This document shows, piece after piece, positions 59,338 through 60,374 of a stretch of 64,000 bases of DNA. The notes under the pieces were generated by a model. That model was not told where the DNA came from, did no database searches, and saw only the letters and a program-made list of their open reading frames with translations. Numbering within the stretch: the first letter of the stretch is position 1; each line of letters begins with the position of its first letter. A program made the translations under genes and the position numbers. This DNA comes from Nitrospira tepida (GTDB taxonomy: Bacteria; Nitrospirota; Nitrospiria; Nitrospirales; Nitrospiraceae): positions 4,250,461 to 4,314,460 of the forward strand of contig NZ_OX365700.1 in NCBI RefSeq assembly GCF_947241125.1. Direction: 5' to 3'.

Positions 59338-59580
59338 TTAGGCGGTATCGGCAAACTCTATCCAGGGACTCGTCCGGCTTGGTTGTCCCCACGCCCGCCA
59401 GCGTCGTTCGCTGCGATGGGGTTGTTGAGGCGGCCGCGTTCGATGATGCAAAATGAGGGCATCATAAATCTCACCGCAGTTGATGCACCGCCATCCGTCG
59501 AAGTGACCCTGCCCGGTGTCATCGGAATAATCATAAAACTCGTCGCGCACCATGCATCCCTCGCATCGGGCACATACCAT
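59338..59580 (-). CDS. Small zinc-ribbon protein
   Basis: 80 residues from the ATG at 59580, with GGAGGGGG at proper distance. Two knuckles, MVCARCEGCM and WRCINCGEIYD, form a CxxC...CxxC zinc ribbon. DDTGQGHFDGW lies between them. The C-terminal part is basic (TRPPQQPHRSERRWRAWGQP). A nucleic-acid-binding or adaptor role is possible. It is transcribed away from the hairpin repeat array, whose first unit begins within its leader. Confidence 0.65.
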   Translation of the reverse strand: MVCARCEGCMVRDEFYDYSDDTGQGHFDGWRCINCGEIYDALILHHRTRPPQQPHRSERRWRAWGQPSRTSPWIEFADTA

Positions 59581-59592
59581 GACATCCCCCTC

Positions 59593-60040
59593 CATACCAA
59601 GCTTCGCTTGAACCGCCGGCTCTTCAGGCGCAGCCTCTCTTCCTTGCCGCCGGCGGAGAAACACCGCCCGTGATTCTCCCCGTCTTGCTCCATACCAAGC
59701 TTGCTAGACCCGGCGCCTCTTTATCGTCTTATCGTATCCGTCGGCGCCGGAGAAACACCGCCCGTGATTCTCTTCGTCTTGCTCCATACCAAGCTTCGCT
59801 TGAGCCGGCGGCTCATCGGGCGCAGCCCCTCTTCATTGACGCCGCCGGAGAAACCCCACCAGGGATTTTCTTTTTCTCATACCAAGCTTCGCTTGAACCG
59901 CCGGCTCTTCAGGCGCAGCCTCTCTTCCTTGTCGCCGGCGGAGAAACACCTCCAGTGTTTCTGTCTTCATTCCGGTTGTACCGGCGGCTCATCGGGCGAC
60001 GCCCTTCTTCCTTGATGCCGCCGGAGCGAACTCCTCACGT
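59593..60040. repeat. Tandem array of five about 90-98-bp hairpin units
   Basis: Units begin at 59593, 59691, 59785, 59878 and 59968 (steps 98, 94, 93, 90). Each starts CATACCAAGCTTCGCTTG or a variant, continues with CCGGCTCTTCAGGCGCAGCC and ends at GCCGGCGGAGAAACACC. Within each unit, ACCGCCGGC near the start and GCCGGCGGAG near the end are inverted, so each could fold as a long stem. It occupies the gap between two small zinc-ribbon genes. Units have drifted by substitution, and open frames through it shift, so it is not coding. Confidence 0.88.
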
Positions 60041-60137
60041 CGCCCGGCTCCACACCGCGGATTTTTCATCTTACGCCGCGCCCTTGCATGGAACGGCTAG
60101 GGCTTTCCCTAGCCTGCATTGAATGACCAGCCGCCGC

Positions 60138-60374
60138 TCACACGGTCGCCGCATTGCCTTCCCAAAGCCCGACCGATCGTTCGACGCCGCATTGTGCGCA
60201 GCGGGCGACCAGCCGAGCGGTCCCGGTCGCTGCAGCGGCACGCGCCACGAGCGAATAGCGCCTGGCTCCGCACAGGTCACAGGAGGCCTCGCTGCGCAGG
60301 GTGATCGCATCCTGCAGGGTCTTGACGAGATTGACTCGTCGTACACGACCGAGGATTTTCACAGTCGGCACCAT
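60138..60374 (-). CDS. Small zinc-ribbon-like protein
   Basis: 78 residues, with AAAGGAGGTC before the ATG. Two Cys pairs, SCDLCGARRYSL and ARCAQCGVERSV, probably bind one zinc. The N-terminus is basic (VKILGRVRRVNLVKTLQD). No known family is certain. It lies on the other side of the repeat array from a similar small Cys protein. A role in nucleic-acid binding or regulation is inferred. Confidence 0.65.
   Translation of the reverse strand: MVPTVKILGRVRRVNLVKTLQDAITLRSEASCDLCGARRYSLVARAAAATGTARLVARCAQCGVERSVGLWEGNAATV

Follow-up and report, generated by a model that had tools for sequence, protein, structure and literature searches.

A head-to-tail array of hairpin units in the genome of Nitrospira tepida has likely grown in place, by tandem expansion, from a non-autonomous DNA element of about 90 bp that is dispersed through the genome. 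This element belongs to Nitrospiraceae-type bacteria, is probably mobile, and resembles PATEs, the palindrome-associated, IS605-related transposable elements of Haloquadratum (PMC3119063; also PMC7290912). The array lies in the window that we analyzed, a stretch of 64,000 nucleotides at 4.25–4.31 Mb of a single-contig genome of 4.73 Mb. The units are structured and dispersed, are arranged head to tail, and have a fixed position relative to two host features. We infer that they move by single-strand, hairpin-directed insertion without duplication. An earlier note on this DNA had described the array from the letters of the window; it did not cover the family's dispersal, nor the placement of units at the CCA ends of tRNAs and tmRNA and at Shine-Dalgarno sites.

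The tandem array of five hairpin units that the note had reported was recovered with TRF, with direct-repeat families, and with a covariance model. It consists of four units of 88–98 bp and a degenerate fifth, and it spans 59593–60045 (Table 1). In the TRF results no other array in the window scores higher (59590–59957, with a period of 93 bp, 3.9 copies, and a score of 366). Ungapped direct-repeat families gave the four unit starts in Table 1 plus one divergent fifth. The covariance model, which was trained on 13 units (the window's own five and eight others), found all five with E ≤ 2.3e-15. The note had placed the array at 59593–60040; the start is right, but the array reaches about 60045. 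Similarly, the reported unit size of 90–98 bp fits the first three units but not the fourth, and the shared head CATACCAAGCTT is found in the other units but not in the fifth. The arms ACCGCCGGC/GCCGGCGG are present, but units 2, 3, and 5 have other arms, which are complementary to each other.

The array was also said to lie between two zinc-ribbon genes. Both neighbors are indeed small genes with CxxC motifs, but neither matched any Pfam model, so the zinc-ribbon label rests on those motifs. The left flank of the array has CCTC at 59589–59592 and a minus-strand ATG at 59580. Because these are a Shine-Dalgarno site and a start codon, the array is directly upstream of the 59338–59580 gene, whose 5' leader would contain it. 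The product of this gene belongs to an abundant family of uncharacterized small proteins, with matches in all 60 of the family genomes that we searched and up to 17 matches per genome.

Table 1. Features of the array and its surroundings (positions in the window; scores are from the covariance model).
Feature	Position	Strand	Score or remark
Unit 1, 98 bp	59593..59690	+	102.6 bits
Unit 1, head hairpin CAAGC-TTC-GCTTG	59598-59610	+	
Unit 1, arms of GC hairpin	59613-59620 and 59649-59656	+	
Unit 1, third hairpin	about 59655-59679	+	
Unit 2, 94 bp	59691..59784	+	79.6 bits
Unit 2, GC hairpin with its own complementary arms CCGGCGCC/GGCGCCGG			TTTATCG-type loop
Unit 3, 93 bp, arms CCGGCGGC/GCCGCCGG	59785..59877	+	98.6 bits
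Unit 4, about 88-90 bp	59878..59967	+	104.5 bits; right border inexact
Unit 5, degenerate, altered head CATTCCGGTTG	59968..60045	+	56.7 bits; GC hairpin retained
Shine-Dalgarno GGAGG (plus strand CCTCC), abutted by head of unit 1	59589..59593	-	
Gene of 80-aa CxxC (zinc-ribbon-like) protein	59338..59580	-	no Pfam match
Second small CxxC neighbor gene	60138..60374	-	no Pfam match

From 5' to 3', a unit has CATACC, the head hairpin (which begins 5 nt inside the left end), an A, a GC-rich hairpin (stem about 8 bp, loop 19–29 nt), GAGAAA, a weaker hairpin, and a pyrimidine-rich tail. There is also a short class of units with an identical head, a smaller GC hairpin, and a TTCGATCA-type loop, which match the model over 63–67 nt. 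The letters of the GC stem vary between units, but the pairing is retained (CCGCCGGC/GCCGGCGG, CCGGCGCC/GGCGCCGG, and CCGGCGGC/GCCGCCGG). When 129 units from this genome are aligned, pairing holds in 95.2% of helix cells, 10 of the 13 pairs show changes on both sides, and there are 187 double-change cells (versus 48 in shuffles). Covariation scores 0.349, as compared to 0.018–0.033 if the partners are slid; these exact figures lean toward the model because the alignment was fitted to it, and the gap between the real value and the slid controls is large. The head and GC hairpins are conserved by strong compensatory variation. On the plus strand, single units are also more stably folded than their dinucleotide shuffles are on average (z = -1.6 to -3.7). 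The window gave no Rfam match above the gathering score.

As the note had argued, the array is not a microsatellite. Nor is it a CRISPR array: the units are alike over nearly their whole length and there are no unique spacers. The units have no gene cassettes between them, as the sites of an integron attC array would. The note had also seen no coding constraint, and this holds as well. A decayed protein-coding repeat gene might account for a mechanical ORF of 150 amino acids that crosses the array (59670–60122), but the unit lengths (98, 94, 93, and about 88) share no frame and the variation preserves base pairing, so we consider the array to be non-coding. Also, units elsewhere lie beside tRNAs and Shine-Dalgarno sites, and we saw no consistent reading frame across units in relatives. 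We give almost no credence to the decayed gene.

A check that the note had proposed, BLASTN of one unit against its own genome, gave 63 matches, which revealed a dispersed family. Using the covariance model, we found at least 138 units (from the best 150 candidates) in about 68 clusters of 1–7 units each, and none of the 68 clusters has units on both strands. The note had wondered about a hotspot of repeat expansion, which was partly right, as the units are dispersed across the genome and grow in tandem. Its two other suggestions, a protein-binding array and a multi-stem RNA, are at most conceivable as functions. We classified the 68 clusters by their left flank: 14 are carried by a miniature element (a MITE), about 6 are nested in another unit, 12 come after the 3' end of a tRNA, and 36 are free-standing.

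Most of the genera that we tested within the same family (Nitrospiraceae-type) carry related units. None of five genomes from another family of the same order had units, and when we screened further genomes of the order with BLASTN, a single weak match came up. A scan for exact motifs across 84,980 species genomes found at least 112 stretches, and among the matches listed, nearly all are labelled Nitrospira, Nitrospirae, or Nitrospiraceae. Contigs with other labels, namely a metagenome-assembled genome of Aquabacterium olei (L230) and an uncultured Nitrosospira (L284), also have units or host repeats of the Nitrospira type; these labels are probably binning or naming errors. We found no exact unit match in viral contigs and nothing similar to the unit in plasmids, and on these searches we reject a viral or plasmid source. 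In the literature on Nitrospira repeats and on targeting of Shine-Dalgarno sites or tRNAs, we found no description of this element family; the RepRanger paper merely lists Nitrospira moscoviensis in a table of REPs.

Behind 13 of the 45 tRNA genes of this genome, a unit or a clear remnant starts at the base after CCA, on the same strand. In two congeners, we found units behind about 17 of 43 and 13 of 42 tRNAs when reading by eye (a script pattern alone flagged 16 and 9). The tRNAs for Lys-TTT, Leu-TAG, Leu-CAG, and Ala-CGC are occupied in one congener and free in the other, and Arg-CCT has different units in the two; the flanks are too divergent for exact empty sites to be aligned by eye. In other genera, many kinds of tRNA have a unit behind their CCA, and in three genomes of relatives a unit follows the CCA end of tmRNA.

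In six further places, an array is preceded by just a 3' fragment of a tRNA, as would be left by an integrated island. Between tRNA-Glu and its displaced array lie 2.9 kb that include a tyrosine integrase. Islands that integrated at tRNAs appear to have displaced the arrays there. Three tyrosine integrases are encoded near arrays, and the best interpretation is that they belong to islands at tRNAs, with tRNA-Glu as the clearest case. Pairs of a tRNA with a downstream tRNA 3' fragment and array, the tRNA-Glu case among them, are at 4000304-4003366 (L106), 646551/668297, 1656297/1649551, and 2789094/2798532 (all G000:C1).

The second kind of site accounts for 30 of the 36 free-standing clusters, including the window's array: these abut the Shine-Dalgarno GGAGG of a gene on the opposite strand. 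Read on the strand of the gene, 28 of these 30 have GGTATG directly followed by GAGG-N-ATG, or something near it. Among the other six, the cluster at 2614599 lies at a GGAGG that opens a tRNA-Ser gene. As a control, we used 200 other intergenic CCTCC sites in the stretches around unit matches, of which 53 precede an open frame at Shine-Dalgarno distance. Relative to this rate, 30/36 has a binomial P of 1.6e-12, or 3e-5 if the rate is set to 0.5; the exact P value is soft because the control was built on crude gene calls. We scanned ten of the abutted genes, and all ten encode Pfam domains (LeuA-type, DUF520, UDP-sugar dehydrogenase, flagellar rod protein, CDGSH, GYD, SPFH, and others).

We also examined 29 homologs, perhaps including paralogs, of the window's zinc-ribbon-like gene (L350–L378). 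Most of them retain a GGAGG-like site before the ATG, and the unit is missing at nearly all of them (L360 may have a degenerate one). Because the homologs mostly keep the Shine-Dalgarno site without the unit and the congeners differ in which tRNAs are occupied, the units appear to be gained and lost at sites that are there in any case.

Since the hairpins covary and the units abut functional RNA borders exactly, the units might instead be RNA elements whose positions are fixed by selection. They could act as 5' leader structures (for ribosome standby or mRNA stability) and as trailers or terminators of tRNAs. One terminator-like stem is present in the array, on the plus strand, but terminator-like matches are no commoner than in shuffles. 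Also, the units are in sense orientation at tRNAs and antisense at gene starts, so different strands would be transcribed, which speaks against a common RNA function for both. The abutted genes have many unrelated functions, and MITE-borne and nested copies exist. The use of opposite strands, the lack of a unit before nearly all homologous genes, and tRNA occupancy that differs between congeners all weaken the case for a selected RNA function, which we consider unlikely.

Other features bear on the mobile element that we favor. The left border of a unit is sharp and falls at CCTC|C at Shine-Dalgarno sites and at CNCC|A at tRNAs. We saw no target duplication of more than 5 nt. The MITE that holds the 14 MITE-borne clusters, each a lone short unit, has inverted ends (TAGCCCGCATTATTCATGA...TCATGAATAATGCGGGCTA). 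The copies of this MITE match one another up to CCCGCC and then have either a unit or a short loop; here too the left border is clean and the right one ambiguous. The apex is where many copies have a single hairpin unit, and where others have the short loop; examples (G000:C1) are at about 433304-433602 (L071), 1853643-1853869 (L330), and 210395-210683 (L329). The nested clusters typically begin after GCCCCTC in the loop of a GC hairpin, and the parent unit resumes behind them.

Relatives have a second palindromic host repeat with the short class of unit at its apex: the unit's CATACC directly follows GCGAGGAGGTA, and GTACGTTGAG lies farther on. This repeat occurs in L217–L328 (for instance, at about 7420-7560 of L263). 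Because the units in it follow GAGGAGGTA, the target is not absolute. Guide pairing between a GGAG that is 3' of the GC hairpin and the CTCC of the target fits this genome; we keep it only as a lead because relatives often read GGAT at that place.

We propose that a unit would insert on one strand, 3' of a target of 4–5 nt and without target duplication, as is the way of single-strand elements with hairpin ends, for example derivatives of IS200/IS605. Fresh units would land beside or within older ones, which could explain both the tandem arrays and the nested copies. The units would be moved, or would once have been moved, by a trans-acting enzyme. The array would be tolerated because the insertion site spares the ribosome-binding site or the tRNA, and any effect on the leader of the zinc-ribbon-like gene would be a by-product. 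Several observations count against this proposal: we found no mobilizing enzyme in the genomes searched, the genomes compared offered no seamless empty site at strain level, the right border of the unit is ambiguous, and the units show no clear replication-strand bias of the kind that goes with single-strand transposition.

A stricter version would have a genome-encoded Y1 (HUH) transposase move the units, as in a REP/RAYT or IS200/IS605 system. A hairpin-ended element with a short one-sided target and no target duplication would fit such a system, and this genome has six or so Y1 transposase genes. However, no unit lies beside these genes, and in relatives a unit is near just 1 of 30 Y1 loci. 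Furthermore, four genomes (G004, G018, G020, and G023) have 71, 55, 9, and 30 units, respectively, and no Y1 match, and one Y1-free genome with 55 units is rated 100% complete. For several genomes, then, we reject Y1 or RAYT as the required mobilizer, and the strict version seems quite improbable overall. Another idea is retro-insertion, in which a reverse transcriptase would copy the units from RNA and be primed at nicked CNCC or CCA ends. The targets are RNA borders and a CCA end could be a natural primer, but RVT_1 was found in only 1 of the 12 same-family genomes searched and was not found in the same four genomes. This largely refutes retro-insertion, which would require a divergent reverse transcriptase that the model missed, and we view it as very improbable. 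We found no recurrent recombinase-like gene beside the units.

At one locus of this genome (L120, about 3240593-3243850 of G000:C1), two identical-looking Y1 ORFs of 322 amino acids lie in tandem, 1.8 kb apart, each along with its flanking ORFs.

Among known elements, the units are most usefully compared to PATEs. Both have a non-coding length, no terminal inverted repeats, near-terminal palindromes, heterogeneous sequences, and no target duplication (PMC3119063), although the right border of the unit is inexact. PATEs have a targeting sequence of 4–5 bp at the 5' end; the units resemble them in following CCTC at Shine-Dalgarno sites and CNCC at tRNAs, but they also follow GAGGAGGTA in the second host repeat, and their site preference goes beyond the motif. 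In contrast to PATEs, the units form tandem arrays, reside precisely at tRNA and tmRNA CCA ends and Shine-Dalgarno sites, and have no IS605-type parent that we could find. No Y1-encoding parent shares their ends in their own genome (and the 1 of 30 loci is all that relatives offer), and Y1 genes are missing from several unit-rich genomes. Because neither a parent element nor a Y1 enzyme is tied to the units, we do not claim that they are PATEs.

Other comparisons are looser. The GTAG/CGTC REPs of REP/RAYT systems are also small extragenic hairpin repeats with high copy numbers, and CGTC REPs also lack a dedicated transposase (PMC3733652). The units differ in their length (about 90 bp, with room for two or three hairpins) and in their head-to-tail arrays and specific sites. 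REPs have a 20–40 bp hairpin with GTAG or CGTC at its foot, and we saw no such tag in the unit sequences that we read, where the head is ATACC plus the CAAGC hairpin. The small mobile repeats (SMRs) of Haloquadratum share the lack of target duplication, a strong target preference, and a mobilization that has been called enigmatic, but they have terminal inverted repeats and mostly hit other mobile elements (PMC3119063). The unit itself is not a MITE, as it lacks terminal inverted repeats and target duplication, although some units ride a true MITE. Islands with tyrosine integrases also reside at tRNA 3' ends, but the units have no integrase gene, are about 90 bp, start exactly after CCA, and use Shine-Dalgarno sites too.

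The near-exclusive use of two types of sites exceeds what a short target predicts, which also counts against the proposal of a PATE-like element. We raise, tentatively, the possibility that the units represent a new class of small mobile element, one that some enzyme other than a Y1 transposase or a reverse transcriptase steers to borders defined by RNA. If so, such an element would land just outside a functional RNA feature (the CCA end of a tRNA or tmRNA, or a Shine-Dalgarno site).

The usual picture of small hairpin repeats is that they are scattered, extragenic, and loosely targeted. Here, a family-wide element is placed to the base at two kinds of sites that are linked to translation, and it occupies 30–40% of the tRNA genes in some genomes. 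This would amount to a bacterial safe-harbor strategy; the tRNA-targeting retroelements of eukaryotes are a similar idea. The units could also be a test system for how short elements recognize tRNA or tmRNA ends and ribosome-binding sites. They matter for the annotation of nitrifying bacteria as well, since the leaders of genes and the trailers of tRNAs contain such arrays.

The window also contains a separate 14-bp tandem repeat at 286–342, with 4.1 copies of TTTGCTTGAAGAGG and 97% matches.
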